Positions 1,948 through 16,425 of a DNA stretch of 21,606 bases are shown piece after piece. The notes beneath the pieces are model-generated. The model was not told the DNA's origin. It ran no database searches and worked only from the letters and a program-made list of their open reading frames with translations. Made by a program: the position numbers and the translations under genes. The stretch spans positions 1-21,606 of the forward strand of contig JAHLWJ010000039.1 in NCBI GenBank assembly GCA_019057975.1, in the 5' to 3' direction. Each line of letters starts with the position of its first letter. Position 1 is the stretch's first letter. The DNA comes from Promethearchaeota archaeon. GTDB lineage: Archaea; Asgardarchaeota; Lokiarchaeia; Sigynarchaeales; SOKP01.

Positions 1948-3366
1948 TTAAATATTTTTTAGATGAAAACTTCTTAACTCTTTTAGATAAACGGGATCTC
2001 CCTTTTTTATTTCCATTTCATTAGTTTCTATCCCCACAATAACATTTCCTTTAGTACCAAACGTATTTAAAACTCTTGTAAAAGGATATTCCAATTTTTT
2101 GCCTACAATCTTTTTAGCACCTATAGCACTTTGAGCTAATCCTGTACAGATTATACCTTGAGAATGTTCTGCGTTCTTAATAGTTCCCTTTTTAACTTTA
2201 TATTTATAAAAAAGTGGAGGATCTTTATGAGTTTTTAATATTTTTGCTGATCCTAAGATTCTAAGAGTTGTAGGGGGTAAATCTAATCGACTTATAAGCA
2301 TTACCATTCTTTCTTTTCTTATTAAAACCTTTTCTTTCAATATCATTAACGCATTAAATCCTTTTTCTTTATTCGAAACAGTAAATTGAATTTTTTTACG
2401 ATCTTCCTCATAATAAGGATAAATATTGCCTACAGTAGTCAACATACCAATCGTAATATGAACTTGAGTTCCAAAATGAGTTTTTGGTTTGAAGAGTTTA
2501 TTATTATTTACATTTATTTCAATAACATCACAATATTCAAAAGCATCTGGGTTGTTTGTTGCATAACAACCACGATAGATCTTATTCACATCTACCCCTT
2601 TTACATTAATTCCTATTCGATCACCTGCTTTCGCAGAGTCAACATTTTGATGGAAAATCTGAATACTTTTAACGCGACCTGAAGATTTTATAGGTAAAAT
2701 ATCTAAGTTTTGATTTAATTCTAAATTGCCACTTAGTAATGTTCCTGTCAATACTGCTCCTATACCTTTAATTGGAAAATGATGATCTATAGGAATTACA
2801 ACATCTCCTCCAGTATCCCTTTTTAATTCTATAGAATTTATTATGTCTAAAATTCCATCTTTTAATTCCTTAAAACCGGTGTTAGTTTTTGCAGAAACTG
2901 GATAGACTGGTATATTTGAACCATATGAGGTTGTGTTAAAAAAATTCTTTGTCTTTTCTATTTCATCATTAATGTTTCCAGAGAATAGATCAATTTTATT
3001 AAGGATTACAATTATTTTACTAATTCCAAGTGATTCAACCATAATAATATGCTCTCCAGTTTGCACTTGAGGTCCTTTATTTATATCAATAACTATTAAA
3101 GCACAATCAATGATTTCCACAGATGAGGCGCTAATTTTGATTAGATCAGCATGTCCAGGACCATCCACGAGTGTAATAAGGTAATCGTTAAGTATAAAAC
3201 TAGTAAAACCTATATCTATTGTAATCCCTCTTTCTTTACTTTGAGGATGACCATCAATACCTGCTGTACCAACAATGGAACTAAGAACTTCAGCAATTGC
3301 CGTTTTCCCAGAATCTATATGGCCAAATAATCCAATATGTACAGGAATTTTCTTAGTAATATCCAT
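1948..3366 (-). CDS. selB: Selenocysteine-specific elongation factor SelB (EEFSEC type)
   Basis: A translational GTPase that brings Sec-tRNA-Sec to the ribosome at recoded UGA codons. All G motifs are visible: GHIDSGKT (15-22), RGIT (46-49), DGPGH (68-72), NKID (123-126) and SAK (158-160). The stretch HPQSKERGITIDIGF is characteristic of archaeal and eukaryotic SelB rather than EF-1A or aIF2-gamma, where the equivalent loop differs. Beta-barrel domains II and III follow, then a short C-terminal domain IV. The length of 472 residues is normal for archaeal SelB, and the long winged-helix tail of bacterial SelB is absent. The Sec assignment is supported by tRNA-Sec and SepSecS less than 6 kb away. 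The roadblock gene follows on the same strand. Confidence 0.93.
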   Translation of the reverse strand: MDITKKIPVHIGLFGHIDSGKTAIAEVLSSIVGTAGIDGHPQSKERGITIDIGFTSFILNDYLITLVDGPGHADLIKISASSVEIIDCALIVIDINKGPQVQTGEHIIMVESLGISKIIVILNKIDLFSGNINDEIEKTKNFFNTTSYGSNIPVYPVSAKTNTGFKELKDGILDIINSIELKRDTGGDVVIPIDHHFPIKGIGAVLTGTLLSGNLELNQNLDILPIKSSGRVKSIQIFHQNVDSAKAGDRIGINVKGVDVNKIYRGCYATNNPDAFEYCDVIEINVNNNKLFKPKTHFGTQVHITIGMLTTVGNIYPYYEEDRKKIQFTVSNKEKGFNALMILKEKVLIRKERMVMLISRLDLPPTTLRILGSAKILKTHKDPPLFYKYKVKKGTIKNAEHSQGIICTGLAQSAIGAKKIVGKKLEYPFTRVLNTFGTKGNVIVGIETNEMEIKKGDPVYLKELRSFHLKNI

Positions 3367-8242: not shown

Positions 8243-8335
8243 GGCCCTTGACGGTTAGAGTGGTCTCTGACACTGGGCTTCAAACCCAGTTATCCTGCGG
8301 AGGGATAGGGGTTCGATTCCCCTCGAGGGCCGCCA
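8243..8335 (+). tRNA. tRNA-Sec (anticodon UCA)
   Basis: A selenocysteine tRNA by structure. The acceptor stem has 9 bp (8243-8251 with 8323-8331, one G-T wobble) and the T stem 4 bp (GGGG 8308-8311 with CCCC 8319-8322), giving the 9/4 arrangement of archaeal and eukaryotic tRNA-Sec. The D stem is long, 7 bp (8254-8260 with 8265-8271), with a 4-nt TGGT loop, a known recognition feature. The anticodon stem CTGGG/CCCAG encloses CTTCAAA, so the anticodon is TCA, which reads UGA. A long variable arm follows (8291-8307). The discriminator is G8332, and CCA is encoded at 8333-8335. No intron. SepSecS lies 330 bp downstream. Confidence 0.96.
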
Positions 8336-8660: not shown

Positions 8661-10028
8661 GTGGTTGATTTTAATAAGATAAGTGAGTTTTTTCAAAATT
8701 CCTCTATTCCTCAAAATATGCTAGATAGAGGGCAAATAGTACTTAATAATTTCATGAAACCAATAAAAACTTTGTTTGAACAAAAGAGTGTTCCAAAAGA
8801 ACCTTGGAACGATGAGCAAATTGAATTTCTCCTTCGGACTCTTTCGAATATGGATACTGATAAAGATAGCAATGCAGCAAGAGTAGGAGAAAGAGAGGCA
8901 AGAATAGCATCAAAATTACATCTACAAACTTCTGCAGGATTTTGTCATGGAGTAGGAAGAAGTGGTTTTCTAACGGCCCCGCAACCTAAAGCACCTGGGG
9001 GATCAATAATGTATGAAATCTCTAATTATTTAGCGCGAGATATATTAAGGAGTTATGGATTGCCAAATATAAAAGAAGCAATTGTAGTTCCATTATGTAC
9101 AGGGATGTCTTTATCCTTAACATTAGGTGCTTTAAGGCCAGATGGGGGTGAAAACTATTCAAGTAGTAAGAAAACTGTATTAATTCCTCAAGTGGATCAC
9201 AAATCATTGTTAAAATCGATAGAATTAATGGGACTTAAATCTAAAATTATAAAAGGTAAAATTTTTGGAGATGCAGTAAGGATCCCAACTGAGGATATAG
9301 AAACTAATATTGATAATGATTGTTATGCAATAATCTCAATTACGAGTTTTTTTCCGCCTCGTGAACCTGATAACATAAAGGAAATTAGCAAATTAGCACG
9401 GGAAAAAGATCTTGTCCATATTATTATCAATGCCTATGGTGTTCAGAGCCCGGAATGGATGAAGTTGATTCGTTCAGCAATAGATGCCGGGAGAGTTGAT
9501 GCGATAATTCAATCAACTGATAAAAATTTTCTCACTCCTGTTGGGGGGTCCCTGATTGCATCTCCTGCTAAAGAAAATATAATTAAAATCAGCCAGGCTT
9601 ATGCTGGACGGGCATCAGCTACTCCAGTTGTTAATTTTTTAATATCTATGCTCTCTTTAGGAATTAATGGTTATCAAAAATTGATTGAAGAACAACAGCA
9701 AAATAGAAAATTACTTGAAGAAAAATTATCAATTGTAGCAAAGAATTTGAACGAGAGAATATTAGAAATTTATAATCCTGTAGCCGTGGCTTTATCTCTG
9801 GACAATTTAAAAGAAGAACATTTATTTGCAATTGGTGGTGCATTATATAATCTAAGAGTTACTGGTCCTCGAGTGTATAGTCCCAAAGAAAATGCATTTG
9901 GCACATGTTGCGAAAATTATCCAACCCCATATATTGTCATGAATGCAGCAATAGGCTCAAAAAAAGAAGATATTGTCTCTGCTGTTGAAAGGTTTGAGAA
10001 GGCTTATAAGCAAATAACTCTGAAGTAA
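8661..10028 (+). CDS. spcS: O-phosphoseryl-tRNA(Sec):selenocysteinyl-tRNA synthase (SepSecS)
   Basis: A PLP enzyme that converts O-phosphoseryl-tRNA-Sec and selenophosphate to Sec-tRNA-Sec, the last step of Sec formation in archaea and eukaryotes. Diagnostic motifs are VGEREARIAS (about 75-84), FCHGVGRSG (94-102, the phosphate-binding loop region), QPKAPGGS, PLCTGMSLSL (144-153), INAYGVQS (256-263) and STDKNF with the PLP lysine Lys288, followed by TPVGGS. GRASATP and SLGINGYQKL follow as in the human enzyme. The length of 455 residues is normal. The start is GTG 8661: an in-frame TGA lies two codons upstream, and GTGAT 5 nt before the start can act as Shine-Dalgarno. tRNA-Sec is directly upstream. 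Confidence 0.95.
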   Translation: MVDFNKISEFFQNSSIPQNMLDRGQIVLNNFMKPIKTLFEQKSVPKEPWNDEQIEFLLRTLSNMDTDKDSNAARVGEREARIASKLHLQTSAGFCHGVGRSGFLTAPQPKAPGGSIMYEISNYLARDILRSYGLPNIKEAIVVPLCTGMSLSLTLGALRPDGGENYSSSKKTVLIPQVDHKSLLKSIELMGLKSKIIKGKIFGDAVRIPTEDIETNIDNDCYAIISITSFFPPREPDNIKEISKLAREKDLVHIIINAYGVQSPEWMKLIRSAIDAGRVDAIIQSTDKNFLTPVGGSLIASPAKENIIKISQAYAGRASATPVVNFLISMLSLGINGYQKLIEEQQQNRKLLEEKLSIVAKNLNERILEIYNPVAVALSLDNLKEEHLFAIGGALYNLRVTGPRVYSPKENAFGTCCENYPTPYIVMNAAIGSKKEDIVSAVERFEKAYKQITLK

Positions 10029-10149: not shown

Positions 10150-10830
10150 ATGGAAAACCGACTTTTATCTCAATTTAATGATGTTATTACTTCACAGTGG
10201 CTTTCCAAACATATAGAAGAACCATATGGTTCCTTAATACCTAGAGAGTTGTTTGAAATAGCCTATCATACGTGTAATTCCGTGACTATAAGAAATATAT
10301 ATATGAAATTATCTTCCAGTGAAGATCAACCAGGTTCTAAAGCTGTTCTATATTCAAATACTAAAAAATTTACATCTATAGAGGCTTTAGAAAGTGGATT
10401 AAAAATTACTAAGTATTTCAGTCAAGGGGGTACAGGAGATAAAGTAGTATCTGAAATTCAACCCACTCTTAAAAGAAGGAAAGAGATATTTATGTCAAAC
10501 GATCAAAATTTGAAAGCTCAGATCTTAAAAAGTATTCTAGTTGAACGTAAGCTTGATGAATGTGCTAATTTAGTAATGCTAAAAGGTAATAATCGAAGAA
10601 TATATTTTGCCATTGGCGATGCTAGAGAATCTGCTGCTGTTATTCCGATTTTCATGGAAGCTGAAGGGGCAAGCCTTGTACAACTAGCCTTAAATAAATG
10701 GATGGAGACAGCTCAGAGATTAAACCACGAACAAAACTTTCCTGAGAATCTTATACCTGGTTTTATTAGAAATCTTACCCAAATAAAAAGATGGCTTCTT
10801 GATTTAATTAGTGTTAATCTAGATAAGTAA
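10150..10830 (+). CDS. Hypothetical protein downstream of SepSecS
   Basis: A 226-residue soluble protein that I do not recognise. It has no signal peptide, transmembrane segment or cysteine cluster. The N-terminal third is helical (LLSQFNDVITSQWLSKHIEEPYG). A middle part has short strands and a GGTGDK turn (about residues 93-98). A second predicted alpha/beta stretch, NNRRIYFAIGDARESAAVIPIFMEAEG, is followed by a helical C-terminus. Codon use and base composition match the neighbours. It lies 121 bp after SepSecS on the same strand and directly before the structured RNA region, so a link to Sec metabolism is possible but unproven. Confidence 0.75.
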   Translation: MENRLLSQFNDVITSQWLSKHIEEPYGSLIPRELFEIAYHTCNSVTIRNIYMKLSSSEDQPGSKAVLYSNTKKFTSIEALESGLKITKYFSQGGTGDKVVSEIQPTLKRRKEIFMSNDQNLKAQILKSILVERKLDECANLVMLKGNNRRIYFAIGDARESAAVIPIFMEAEGASLVQLALNKWMETAQRLNHEQNFPENLIPGFIRNLTQIKRWLLDLISVNLDK

Positions 10831-10924
10831 ATTATCTTTTCAATTTTTTTAATACTATATTTTAGAAATCTTAAAATAATATCCTAATACATATAGAGAT
10901 AATACTCTGAGATATATAAAAAAA

Positions 10925-10944
10925 CGTGAAATTGATGTTTCACG
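10925..10944 (-). terminator. Perfect hairpin with T-run on the minus strand
   Basis: CGTGAAA and TTTCACG form a perfect 7-bp stem with a 6-nt loop. On the minus strand it is followed by a run of seven Ts (10918-10924), and on the plus strand by AAAAAG. It could terminate a minus-strand transcript, for example the structured RNA if that is read leftwards. It might instead be an inverted-repeat binding site. Confidence 0.35.
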
Positions 10945-10982
10945 AAAAAGTTTGTATTAAAAATTAATGTGGCGAGAAAAAT

Positions 10983-11198
10983 GGGCCATCGGGGATTTGT
11001 TCTGATGAGGGGAATCCCAATCATCAATTGAACCCCGGATCTCAGGTTTTTACTTTTTACAGACACTTTGCTAATAAATTTTTGTATGTCTGTAGGTCAT
11101 TTATAAGACCTGCGCTTGTTGGCCAAGCGTACTCAAAAACCTTGATAACCAATTTAGAAATGGGAATGATTTTCCAATTTTGGCTAAGCAAATGGCCC
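10983..11198. ncRNA. Candidate multi-helix structured RNA of unknown family
   Basis: A stretch visibly richer in G and C than its surroundings, with no credible ORF. Its ends pair: GGGCCAT (10983-10989) with ATGGCCC (11192-11198). Inside are a CGGGG/CCCCG helix (10990-10994 with 11033-11037) enclosing TGATGA/TCATCA (11003-11008 with 11021-11026) capped by GGGGAATCCC, and then three hairpins that abut without gaps: ACAGACA/TGTCTGT (11059-11093), AGGTC/GACCT (11094-11111) and GCGCTTG/CAAGCGT (11112-11130). This is a closed multi-branch structure of about 216 nt. The strand is unclear. On plus, a TATA-like TATTAAAAA lies 20-30 bp before the first helix. On minus, the closing helix is followed by TTTTT and the 10925 hairpin terminator. 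I found no signatures of RNase P or SRP RNA. Confidence 0.6.
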
Positions 11199-11438
11199 TT
11201 ATTATTATAACTACTAATTTAATTTTCCAAAGTATTTGTTATTGTTTCTCCTTTATATTAATAAATTGATTCGATGGCTTTTAATCTTGCTTGTGTTTAT
11301 ATTCTAATTAAATAAGAAAAAAGATAAATATTTTCTTATTGATAATTTTTTATTGATGTAATCTGTTATATTTATAATTGAAGTAACAAAAAGAGAATTT
11401 AGTAAATTACCAAAAAAAATTTAAAAAGTTGATTATCT
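11199..11438. other. Intergenic, AT-rich promoter region
   Basis: No ORF or RNA is apparent. TATATTTATAATT at about 11366-11378 is a plausible TATA element for the coiled-coil gene at 11439. It would start transcription about 40 nt before the ATG. Confidence 0.4.
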
Positions 11439-11852
11439 ATGGCTGAGATGTTAACTGATCTTCTTCAAAATATCTATAAACGCATAGCTCAATTGGGGCA
11501 GAGCATTCAAAAATTGAACGAAAGTTTAAACTCCCTCAATCAAAACATCGAAGAAAAAATTTCAAACCTAACAGAGAAATTAGAAGAATTTTCTAATGAG
11601 ATTAATGTTACTCAGACTAAACACATTGATGCAGTAAAGGAAATTGGAGGAGAAGCAACCAAAGAATTAAAAGTAATACAAGAAGGCTTAGGATTGGATG
11701 CGCTTCAAAATTTAGTTAAAAAGCTTGAAGATTTTTCTAATCTTTCTGAGGGAATACTTAATCAAGAGACAGTGAATCTTTTATTATCGGAAGCTATCGA
11801 TTCTGTAAAGATTTTAAAAGAATCTCTTAAAGAAGAAGAGGTTATGGAATAA
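11439..11852 (+). CDS. Coiled-coil protein 1 of the 11.4-13.3 kb gene set
   Basis: A 137-residue, almost entirely helical protein. Residues about 10-55 have a regular heptad pattern (IYKRIAQLGQSIQKLNESLNSL...), then a Gly-containing break near EIGGEATKEL and a second helical half. It is acidic and Gln/Asn-rich, with no membrane segment or cysteines. It resembles the next gene in length, the opening MAE and general design, so the pair may be diverged paralogues that form a hetero-coiled-coil. No known function. Confidence 0.7.
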   Translation: MAEMLTDLLQNIYKRIAQLGQSIQKLNESLNSLNQNIEEKISNLTEKLEEFSNEINVTQTKHIDAVKEIGGEATKELKVIQEGLGLDALQNLVKKLEDFSNLSEGILNQETVNLLLSEAIDSVKILKESLKEEEVME

Positions 11853-11888: not shown

Positions 11889-12311
11889 TTGGCAGAACAA
11901 TTATTAGAGGAGATGATTCAAAAAATTAACCAGATCATGAACTCCTTAGATGGAACAATAGCTCAAATCAACCAAATGAGTGGCGCCATTACCCAAATGA
12001 GTCAGAGCTTCGCTGAACAAACAGTTGCGATGACTGAAAATATTAGACTAATTGTAGAGGTTTTAAAACAATTCAGAATTCAATCGAGTAATAGTTTAAA
12101 AGAATTGGCTGAAGATTTTAATAATAAAGTAAAAGAACTTTGGGATAAAAAATCGATTGAAGCAATTACAGAGGAAGAAAAGAAAGCTATTGATACAATA
12201 AAACAGGCATCAAAAGCTGTTACTGATAATCTTTATTTTGCTCAATTATTAAATATTATCCAAAGTATTAGAGAAGAAACCAATAGAATAATTAGTACTA
12301 GTCAATCCTAA
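11889..12311 (+). CDS. Coiled-coil protein 2 of the 11.4-13.3 kb gene set
   Basis: A 140-residue helical protein starting at TTG 11889, supported by GGTGAG eight nt or less upstream. Residues 8-60 form repeated hydrophobic heptads with SGAITQMSQSF and TVAMTENIRLI, reminiscent of the helical bundles of methyl-accepting or t-SNARE-like proteins. This is only a resemblance in pattern. The C-terminal half is a second amphipathic helix pair. It follows coiled-coil protein 1 by 36 nt. Confidence 0.7.
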   Translation: MAEQLLEEMIQKINQIMNSLDGTIAQINQMSGAITQMSQSFAEQTVAMTENIRLIVEVLKQFRIQSSNSLKELAEDFNNKVKELWDKKSIEAITEEEKKAIDTIKQASKAVTDNLYFAQLLNIIQSIREETNRIISTSQS

Positions 12312-14209: not shown

Positions 14210-15355
14210 ATGAATAATGAAATTCTGGCATGTATTGACGACGAAAATATAAAATATTTACAATCAGGCCAAATTTCTAAATATATATATCCTATTGAAA
14301 GAAAAGAAGCACATGAGAAAAAAATCAGTCATCTGATTACTCGATTTTTTATAATATCAAAATCACCTGAAGGAGAAATCAACTATTTAGTTCAAAAAAG
14401 GAGTAAAAATAAAAGTTCTTATCCTGAGTATTTTACAGATTCTTCTTCTGGACATGTCCTATGGACAAGAAATTTAGATCTTTTTAAAATTAAAAAAAAT
14501 GCTCTGAGAGAACTAGAAGAAGAGTTTGGAATTCCATCAAAAGCTATCCAAAAGGTTAGATTTTATGAGTTAGGTGATGAAGAAGATAATAAAACAAAAG
14601 AAATAGCTTACGTTTTTTTTGGATTAGTTGATTTAGGAATACCCTTAAATCCTGATCCTAAAGAGCTAGATATTGAACAAAGTAGATTCTATAACAAAAT
14701 TGAACTGGTTAATTTGTTAAAAAATGAGAAATCAGTTGATCATAGCAGAAAAATCTGGAGAATAATCTTAAATACTGATATTGACTCTCTTTTTGAAAAT
14801 GAAATAGAATTGAAAGTAACTCGTAGTAATGACGTTGCATTATTCATAGGAAGATTTCAACCATTACATCATGGACATATATATGTTCTTCGAAATATTT
14901 TAAAATCATATAAAAAAGTAAAAATTGGAATAGGTAGCTCTCAATTATCAAATACCCCTAATGATCCCTTTACAAACGCAGAAAGAAAAGAATTTTTAAA
15001 CGCTGCTTTCAAGAAACGAAATATCTCCTCTAACAGATACAATATTTATTATATACCAGATATTTTTAATGCGAAGAAATGGGTAGATCATGTTGTTTCT
15101 ATCGTTGGGGAATTCGATGCTGTTTTTTCAAATAGCGATTGGATAAGAGTACTATTTCAAAATAAGGGCTTTAAAGTAGAGAAGAAAATCACAATTTTTA
15201 AAAATAAATTCAATGCTAGCAATATTAGAAGATTAATCATTAAAAATGATAAATCTTGGAAACCATTAGTCCCAAAAGAAGTCGCGGAATTAATAGAAGA
15301 ATGTGACGTAATAAATCGTCTAAAATCTCTCTCTAATACAGCTGATAGTATATGA
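14210..15355 (+). CDS. Nudix - NMN adenylyltransferase fusion
   Basis: A two-domain protein of 381 residues. Residues about 38-185 are a Nudix domain (SGHVLW at 80-85, Nudix box ending ALRELEEEFGI at 98-108), resembling IPP-isomerase-type or ADP-ribose-type Nudix enzymes. Residues about 207-375 are an archaeal NadM-type NMN adenylyltransferase: FIGRFQPLHHGH (212-223) is the HxGH nucleotidyl-transferase motif, followed by GIGSSQ, NDPFTNAERKE and the late NIRRLI segment. The expected activity is NMN + ATP to NAD+, with the Nudix domain perhaps cleaving ADP-ribose or NADH. AAAGGA precedes the ATG. The last four bases overlap the RtcA gene (ATGA). Confidence 0.9.
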   Translation: MNNEILACIDDENIKYLQSGQISKYIYPIERKEAHEKKISHLITRFFIISKSPEGEINYLVQKRSKNKSSYPEYFTDSSSGHVLWTRNLDLFKIKKNALRELEEEFGIPSKAIQKVRFYELGDEEDNKTKEIAYVFFGLVDLGIPLNPDPKELDIEQSRFYNKIELVNLLKNEKSVDHSRKIWRIILNTDIDSLFENEIELKVTRSNDVALFIGRFQPLHHGHIYVLRNILKSYKKVKIGIGSSQLSNTPNDPFTNAERKEFLNAAFKKRNISSNRYNIYYIPDIFNAKKWVDHVVSIVGEFDAVFSNSDWIRVLFQNKGFKVEKKITIFKNKFNASNIRRLIIKNDKSWKPLVPKEVAELIEECDVINRLKSLSNTADSI

Positions 15356-16425
15356 CAGAAGAAAATATCTTAAAAATTGATGGTTCTTTCGGAGAAGGAG
15401 GGGGTGCTATCCTTAGACTATCCGCAGGGTTCTCTTATTTATTTAATCAACCTATTAAAATTAGTAAAATTCGCGCTAATCGTCCTAAACCAGGATTGAG
15501 AACTCAACATTTATTAGGTCTAAAAACAATTTCAGAATTAACAAAAAGCACACTAAGTGATTGTAAGGTCGGAACTGAAGAACTTACTTTTATTCCTAAC
15601 TTAAAAAGAGAAGTTAATACTTATATTCATGTAAATATTAACACTGCAGCAAGCATTGGATTGTTGTTACAACCAATTCAGATTGCAAGTCTTGGAGTTA
15701 AAAAAGTAGAAAAAATTGAGATTGAGATTTTAGGTGGAGGCACATTAGTTAAATGGGCCCCAAGTCTTAATTATCTTCAAGAAGTTACTTATAAGATTTT
15801 CAAGAGATCTGGGCTAAATATTGATATAGAAATCCAAAAACATGGTTTTTACCCTAAAGGTGGAGCTCGAATAATATGTGATATATTACCATTAAAAACA
15901 AACCTAAATCCAATTAATTTAACTGAGTTAGGAAACATCAATTTAATCCAAGGAGAAATTATTATTACTAAACAACTAATGCGAGACAGAGACAATATTG
16001 GAACAAGAATAAGAAAATCTATCCAGCAACAAATAAAAAGAGAATTAAAAGTTGAGACTGATATAAAATTTGTTTGGGTGGATTCAACAAGTCCTGGAGT
16101 AGGCCTTTCTTTATGGGCTCATTCAGATACGGGAGCAATAATTTCTACAGGAACAATATTAGGAGAAAGAAAAATAAGATCTGAAGATTTAGGAAAAATA
16201 GCTGCTAATGAAATAATTAAATATGTTAAAAATGATATCCCCGTTGACAATTATTTAAGTGACCAATTAATTCCATTAATGGCTTATGTTAAGAAACCTT
16301 CAAGAATCAAAGTACACCAAATAACAAGCCACACACAAACTAATCTGGAATTAGTTAAATTATTTACACAACGTGATTATCGTATTACAAAAGATAATAA
16401 TAGTTTTATCTTAGAATACACTTGA
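15352..16425 (+). CDS. rtcA: RNA 3'-terminal phosphate cyclase
   Basis: Converts an RNA 3'-phosphate to a 2',3'-cyclic phosphate through a covalent histidine-AMP intermediate. Family motifs are DGSFGEGGG (10-18, with AILR instead of the usual QILR after it), RANRPKPGLRTQHL (43-56), GGGTLVKWAPS (about 128-138), and KHGFYPKGGA near 163-172. SDQLIPLMAYV is followed near the C-terminus by SHTQTN with His327 as the likely AMP acceptor. The length of 357 residues is slightly above the usual size of about 340. It overlaps the Nudix-NMNAT gene by 4 nt, so translational coupling is expected. Its stop is TGA, and reading beyond it meets TAA after 13 codons. Confidence 0.93.
   Translation: MTEENILKIDGSFGEGGGAILRLSAGFSYLFNQPIKISKIRANRPKPGLRTQHLLGLKTISELTKSTLSDCKVGTEELTFIPNLKREVNTYIHVNINTAASIGLLLQPIQIASLGVKKVEKIEIEILGGGTLVKWAPSLNYLQEVTYKIFKRSGLNIDIEIQKHGFYPKGGARIICDILPLKTNLNPINLTELGNINLIQGEIIITKQLMRDRDNIGTRIRKSIQQQIKRELKVETDIKFVWVDSTSPGVGLSLWAHSDTGAIISTGTILGERKIRSEDLGKIAANEIIKYVKNDIPVDNYLSDQLIPLMAYVKKPSRIKVHQITSHTQTNLELVKLFTQRDYRITKDNNSFILEYT

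Follow-up and report, generated by a model that had tools for sequence, protein, structure and literature searches.

A lokiarchaeal tRNA-Ile(UAU) gene predicted to contain four bulge-helix-bulge introns

Introduction

Cells have to decode the isoleucine codon AUA without also misreading AUG, a problem that bacteria, archaea and eukaryotes solve in different ways. According to the survey in PMC6000648, the archaeal norm is to read AUA with a tRNA-Ile(CAU) modified by TiaS, and a tRNA-Ile(UAU) was recorded in two of 167 archaea; PMC8450103 names the same two species. The closest archaeal precedents are the tRNA-Ile3(UAU) of Nanoarchaeum equitans and Korarchaeum cryptofilum, which are described as missing tRNA-Ile2(CAU), and the Korarchaeum gene has one intron (PMC6000648, PMC8450103). 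In these two organisms, as in eukaryotes, tRNA-Ile(UAU) is taken to be the AUA reader. The tRNA-Ile(UAU) of yeast and of a red alga carries an anticodon-loop intron, which in yeast is reported to be needed to modify U34 and U36 (PMC4090602, PMC9602550). The algal gene, from Cyanidioschyzon merolae, has three introns, placed at 12/13, 37/38 and 53/54 (PMC9602550).

The number of introns in an archaeal tRNA is given as up to three in PMC4390854 and as two or three in PMC8450103. Some Thermoproteales tRNAs, for example the pre-tRNA-Glu(UUC) of Pyrobaculum calidifontis, have several non-canonical introns (PMC4390854). That Asgard tRNAs can be rich in introns is already known: 92-95% of the tRNA genes of Atabeyarchaeia and Freyarchaeia contain introns, more than half have several, and these are often non-canonical, as reported in PMC11291895, the main text of which does not use the word isoleucine. 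No title or abstract that we found in the literature, in a search mainly of openly accessible papers, concerns an Asgard tRNA-Ile(UAU) or an archaeal tRNA with four introns.

Here we describe a locus in the window (the whole 21,606-nt stretch of DNA that was analysed), running from 11198 to 10982 on the minus strand, which by sequence comparison is almost certainly a lokiarchaeal tRNA-Ile(UAU) gene with four bulge-helix-bulge (BHB) introns inside it. It shares its anticodon with the C. merolae gene, but has four introns and places those of the D and T regions at positions unlike the ones described in the alga (PMC9602550). Like the Thermoproteales tRNAs it has several non-canonical introns, although those are described with up to three (PMC4390854). 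Whereas the UAU genes of N. equitans and Korarchaeum are reported as species-specific gains, the lokiarchaeal gene is family-wide and has up to four introns (PMC6000648, PMC8450103), and it belongs to a lineage other than the Atabeyarchaeia and Freyarchaeia (PMC11291895). The gene is of a familiar kind, in a very unusual form.

Results

Identification of the gene

A preliminary description of the window had singled out 10983-11198 as a structured RNA, visibly more GC-rich than its surroundings. Both observations hold and the coordinates were almost exact: the limits are 10982-11198, a precursor length of 217 nt, with a GC content of 40%, where the 500 bases on either side have 29% and 25%, and the fold energy beats all 200 dinucleotide shuffles on both strands (z of -4.9 for the plus and -5.7 for the minus strand). 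Rfam, a check that the description had proposed, gives no match at the locus at its thresholds, and a permissive scan returns four weak matches, far under the gathering scores; the introns probably break the tRNA model, which would account for this silence. RNase P RNA and SRP RNA were considered and rejected, since neither has an Rfam match at the locus and both models match elsewhere in relatives, RNase P RNA in 17 of 18 (over the cut-off in 14) and SRP RNA in 15 of 18 (over the cut-off in 4). In one of the genomes two RNase P RNA matches lie in tandem, 3 nt apart (G008:C66:15325-15647 and 15651-15981). ARAGORN calls tRNA-Sec alone in the window and misses the tRNA-Ile(UAU) locus.

When the stretch was compared by BLAST with 58 related genomes, matches were obtained in 30, all of one family. 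The alignment of these relatives consists of well-kept pieces separated by blocks that are present in some sequences and cleanly gone in others. On the minus strand the kept pieces can be read as a T-arm and as an anticodon arm that contains UAU. The outer 7-bp pairing, already recognised in the preliminary description as joining the two ends, corresponds to the acceptor stem and is maintained through compensatory changes. Five exons, once joined, would give a normal 75-nt cloverleaf with the anticodon UAU. The alternatives offered earlier had been a new RNA class, which finds no support in this product, and a diverged housekeeping RNA, which was a sound guess: removal of the four introns leaves tRNA-Ile(UAU).

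Exons and introns

All parts of the gene lie on the minus strand. Exon 1 (11182..11198) provides the 5' acceptor strand GGGCCAU, the linker UU, the 5' strand of the D-stem, GCUU, and the start of the D-loop. Intron D1 (11152..11181), 30 nt long and situated in the D-loop, has a 4-bp BHB core UUAG/CUAA with one placement. Exon 2 (11146..11151) is the 6-nt D-loop segment UGGUUA, and is followed by intron D2 (11118..11145), 28 nt long, which occupies the part of the D-loop adjoining the D-stem and again has one placement, with the core UGGU/GCCA. Exon 3 (11101..11117) contains the 3' strand of the D-stem, AAGC, a G, the anticodon stem strand CAGGU and the loop CUUAUAA, in which the anticodon UAU lies at 11103-11105; this loop has 7 nt, U33 and a purine at 37. 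The anticodon-loop intron (11048..11100) measures 53 nt, and its core UUAU/GUAA is the best of four equivalent placements, the cut being ambiguous between 37/38 and 38/39 in a run of A.

Exon 4 (11028..11047) comprises the 3' strand of the anticodon stem, ACCUG, the variable loop AGAUC, the T-stem strand CGGGG and UUCAA. The T-loop is interrupted by intron T (10997..11027), 31 nt, whose core GUUC/GAAC, the best of four equivalent placements, has 3 outer and 6 inner pairs beside it. Exon 5 (10982..10996) completes the T-loop and supplies the T-stem strand CCCCG, the acceptor strand AUGGCCC and the discriminator A73; CCA is not encoded. Two further helices drawn in the preliminary description can be placed on this map. 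The helix at 11059/11087 is a hairpin inside the anticodon intron. The one at 11112/11124 pairs a piece of an exon with a piece of intron D2, an intron that is missing in some relatives.

Splicing fits and controls

Each precursor was fitted, with introns free, to seven tRNA references, five of them from the family of the window. All seven derive from these loci, which leaves room for circularity; shuffles and further references served as controls. After the low-scoring pattern matches L053, L054, L066 and L133 had been removed as chance, there were 56 distinct precursors: that of the window, 53 others of its family and two of family f2. For all 56, ARAGORN calls the spliced product a tRNA and gives its anticodon as tat. 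The precursors score at least 103, against at most 26 (mean 8.5) for 150 shuffles of the window precursor fitted to the best of the same seven references, and none of the 150 shuffles is called a tRNA. References with acceptor-stem types C, D and E again give window introns of 30, 28, 53 and 31 nt, and products called tRNA-Ile(tat). A 77-nt mature form, in which the D introns were merged, was replaced by the 75-nt form with reference to relatives that have fewer D introns (L018, L132, L193); with the 77-nt reference 30 of 31 sequences had been called TAT tRNAs, and the exception, L028, splices properly once given a fitting reference.

Two references come from another family and have single introns placed by ARAGORN itself (L132 from G051 and L193 from G043). 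The window precursor scores 42 with L132, where the maximum of 150 shuffles is 24, and 40 with L193, where it is 36; none of these 300 shuffles is called a tRNA. The preliminary description had read the RNA on the plus strand, which is wrong: with these two references that strand reaches scores of 6 and 18, inside the shuffle range, and it is the minus strand that encodes the evolved RNA. Fitted freely, L132 returns D1 and D2 at the reported lengths with an anticodon intron of 47 nt, and L193 merges D1 and D2. Once the intron sites are restricted, both yield 30 nt for D1 and 28 nt for D2, and L132 yields 53 nt for the anticodon intron; ARAGORN then calls the L132 product tRNA-Ile(tat) but makes no tRNA call for that of L193. 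The T-half is misfitted with both references even under this restriction, and intron T is placed on the basis of two close relatives that are without it (L002 and L003), together with its strong BHB.

Bulge-helix-bulge borders

At the fitted borders all four window introns have a full 4/4 BHB core, that is, a 4-bp helix between two 3-nt bulges. Over all precursors, some of which have an additional type of intron (V), complete cores without extra slide are found in 9 of 22 D1 introns, 37 of 45 D2, 45 of 56 anticodon, 4 of 9 V and 19 of 23 T introns; displaced borders reach 4/4 in 0, 8, 12, 9 and 16% of cases, respectively. With a slide of 1 nt the counts become 15 of 22, 37 of 45, 55 of 56, 6 of 9 and 19 of 23, against 5, 13, 14, 26 and 23% at displaced borders. 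The D1 core covaries, taking the forms UUAG/CUAA, UUAG/CUGA and UCAG/CUGA. Strict hBHBh' geometry is clear at the T intron, and the outer helices are weak at the D1, D2 and anticodon introns, which are therefore relaxed BHBs.

Conservation of the cloverleaf and variation of the introns

Covariation among relatives had also been proposed as a check, and it bears out a minus-strand tRNA. Pairs were counted over 37 distinct mature sequences, with L021, L028 and L057 omitted for a gap or an extra base. In these, 753 of 777 pair cells pair (0.969), and 12 of the 21 cloverleaf pairs vary, 11 of them with changes on both sides. When the 3' letters are dealt out among sequences the pairing falls to a mean of 0.850 (maximum 0.870), and a slide of one column reduces it to 0.55 or 0.44. 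The acceptor stem pairs at all 7 positions in 37 of 37 sequences; the one poor pair is D-stem 13-22, which is C/A in 23 of 37. CTTATA is invariant in 31 of 31 BLAST-found rows; the 56 precursors had been selected with it.

Three of the four window introns come and go among the relatives, and the fourth, the anticodon intron, occurs in every one of the 56 precursors. D1 is found in 22 and D2 in 45 (it is missing, for example, in L055 of G051, L193 of G043, L018, L019 and L023), and intron T in 23, L002 and L003 being close relatives that lack it. The commonest set consists of two D introns and the anticodon intron (15/56), followed by one D and anticodon (12/56), two D, anticodon and T (7/56), D, anticodon and T (6/56) and anticodon and T (5/56). 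Less frequent are D, anticodon and V (3/56), anticodon, V and T (3/56), D, anticodon, V and T (2/56), the anticodon intron alone (2/56) and anticodon and V (1/56). Four introns occur in nine of the 56, namely that of the window, L001, L013, L015, L016, L017, L027, L115 and L118. One bin, G157, contains two tRNA-Ile(UAU) genes with different intron sets (L135 and L136), and may be mixed.

Distribution

The exact pattern RAGCGCNNGNCTTATAA, not every match of which was spliced, matches 56 of the 65 family genomes. BLAST adds the gene in two more, G021 (L026) and G022 (L021), which brings the number to 58 of 65. In the other seven, one of which (G025) is rated 100% complete, the gene was not found by a looser pattern either; this pattern was run in 19 genomes and 27 pieces were checked. 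A longer pattern matched 45 stretches in the named collection, all of them titled Lokiarchaeota or Lokiarchaeia, and from these names we take the phylum of the genomes to be the Asgard group. Asgard archaea are regarded as relatives of the ancestors of eukaryotes.

Beyond the family, a tRNA-Ile(tat) with an anticodon intron is called by ARAGORN in G051, G043, G041 and G049. By reading of the sequences, such a gene is also carried by G047, G046, G040, G054 and G057; ARAGORN names the G047 copy Ser and the G046 copy Ala, and leaves uncalled the copies of G040, G054 and G057, which have D-arm inserts. Six further genomes without a TiaS match (families f5, f6, f11, f21, f27) gave no recognisable UAU tRNA in 54 pieces, which were chosen mainly by intron-like length out of 122 tRNA matches, RF00005 recovering 12 to 27 per genome. 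The pattern also matches in three TiaS-bearing genomes, G058, G194 and G195, and the match in G195 alone is a tRNA; the G194 match (L128) was rejected by reading as not tRNA-Ile(UAU). The G195 gene (L129, on G195:C26) is an intron-less tRNA-Ile(tat) with an encoded CCA, perhaps viral, a contaminant or otherwise foreign. On the lokiarchaeal chromosome of G005 (L159-L178, L205-L210), several tRNAs seem by eye to be interrupted at non-canonical sites, and their ARAGORN names look wrong.

AUA decoding and processing genes

The TiaS model (PF08489) matches in 113 of 227 genomes of the phylum and, as a control, in all 4 archaea among 14 control genomes. It matches in none of the 65 family genomes and in 1 of the 83 genomes of the class, that one being G048 of family f4, where contamination, or else a late loss in the others, may be the reason. 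The TilS model has no match above the cut-off in 10 genomes and weaker ones below it in nine of the ten. RF00005 recovered only part of the tRNA set, and a tRNA-Ile(CAU) may exist beside the UAU gene. AUA is common in the window: in 22 of its open reading frames, 213 of the 596 codons for isoleucine are AUA.

Genes for the expected processing steps were counted in relatives of the window genome. Two PF01974 (tRNA_int_endo) genes, whose open frames span 184-234 aa, are present in 10 of 10 genomes, six of them of the family of the window. Splicing endonucleases of the two-subunit type are known for cutting non-canonical introns. RtcB is present once per genome in 10 of 10 genomes, a set partly different from that used for the endonuclease.

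Surroundings of the gene

A terminator-like hairpin, CGTGAAA...TTTCACG followed by T7, lies at 10925..10944 on the minus strand, with its start 38 nt beyond the 3' end of the tRNA; several relatives of the same genus have a similar one. Terminator-like sites number two in 10830-11440 on both strands, where 0.2 are expected, and the second (plus strand, 11182-11197) is inside the tRNA. Upstream of the gene, at about 11315-11365, is an AT-rich motif like AAAAAGATAAAAATTTTTTTATTGG, which recurs upstream of the tRNA in many relatives and is possibly a promoter region. The window also contains a selenocysteine set, consisting of a SelB-type elongation factor (1948-3366, minus), tRNA-Sec (8243-8331, plus) and SepSecS (8661-10028, plus), the nearness of which to the tRNA-Ile gene seems incidental; no link between the two came to light.

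Several neighbouring reading frames lie on the plus strand. A 226-aa protein without a Pfam match is encoded at 10150-10830, and by eye a similar coding end stands beside the tRNA in L009, L022 and L026. Divergent from the tRNA gene are two adjacent genes for small coiled-coil-like proteins (11439-11852 and 11889-12311), the former with a single match, below the cut-off, to an apolipoprotein model. At 15352-16425, near the interrupted tRNA gene, is an RtcA-like RNA 3'-terminal phosphate cyclase, an RNA end-processing enzyme.

Discussion

We considered how else the locus might be read. Several properties would suit a new class of structured ncRNA on the plus strand: its fold energy there (z -4.9), the lack of an Rfam match at threshold and conservation across a family. 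The plus-strand fold, however, largely mirrors that of the minus strand, which is where a full tRNA with compensatory changes is encoded, and on the plus strand the fit to tRNA references stays within what shuffles reach; we therefore hold a new class to be extremely unlikely. The four insertions within one small gene, and the silence of ARAGORN both here and at the G005 orthologue (L177), might instead suggest a tRNA pseudogene that is decaying and has filled with insertions, while a different tRNA reads AUA. Decay is difficult to reconcile with stems that compensatory changes have preserved across the 37 distinct mature sequences, with an invariant CTTATA in all 31 BLAST-found rows and with BHB cores that are commoner at the insertion borders than in displaced controls, and TiaS was found in 0 of 65 genomes of the family; a pseudogene is thus very unlikely.

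Several introns and a shortest exon of 6 nt could also call to mind a permuted or split tRNA, or some other RNA that borrows a tRNA-like fold. Yet all exons follow one another in the normal, collinear order on a single strand, the whole spanning 217 nt, and the acceptor ends sit at the outer borders, so that the probability left for such an arrangement is close to negligible.

For the intron-containing tRNA-Ile(UAU) gene, we propose a maturation pathway in which the 217-nt minus-strand transcript would be cut by the two-gene splicing endonuclease and the exons would be joined by RtcB. Because D1 and D2 are so close to each other, they would likely be removed in a set order. After addition of CCA, the tRNA would be charged by IleRS and would read AUA. 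Charging with isoleucine and reading of AUA are suggested indirectly, by the anticodon, by the lack of a TiaS match and by the frequency of AUA. Since no TiaS was found in the family, tRNA-Ile(UAU) probably replaces the TiaS route as the AUA reader of the cell, much as in eukaryotes.

A broader scenario can be outlined, in which Lokiarchaeia and some other Asgard archaea dropped TiaS and agmatidine in favour of an intron-bearing tRNA-Ile(UAU), the eukaryotic tRNA-Ile(UAU) was inherited from there instead of arising afresh, and the four-intron form is an extreme within the lineage. Taken as a whole we regard it as speculative and rather unlikely.

An anticodon that is nearly absent from reported archaea, with two of 167 in PMC6000648, is carried by 58 of 65 genomes in a lokiarchaeal family without a detected TiaS, and genes of the same kind are present in several more genomes of the phylum in which TiaS was not found. 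Standard tRNA finders can evidently overlook a tRNA in these genomes even when it is presumably essential. With a family-wide UAU tRNA, it becomes possible to test where eukaryotic AUA decoding came from.
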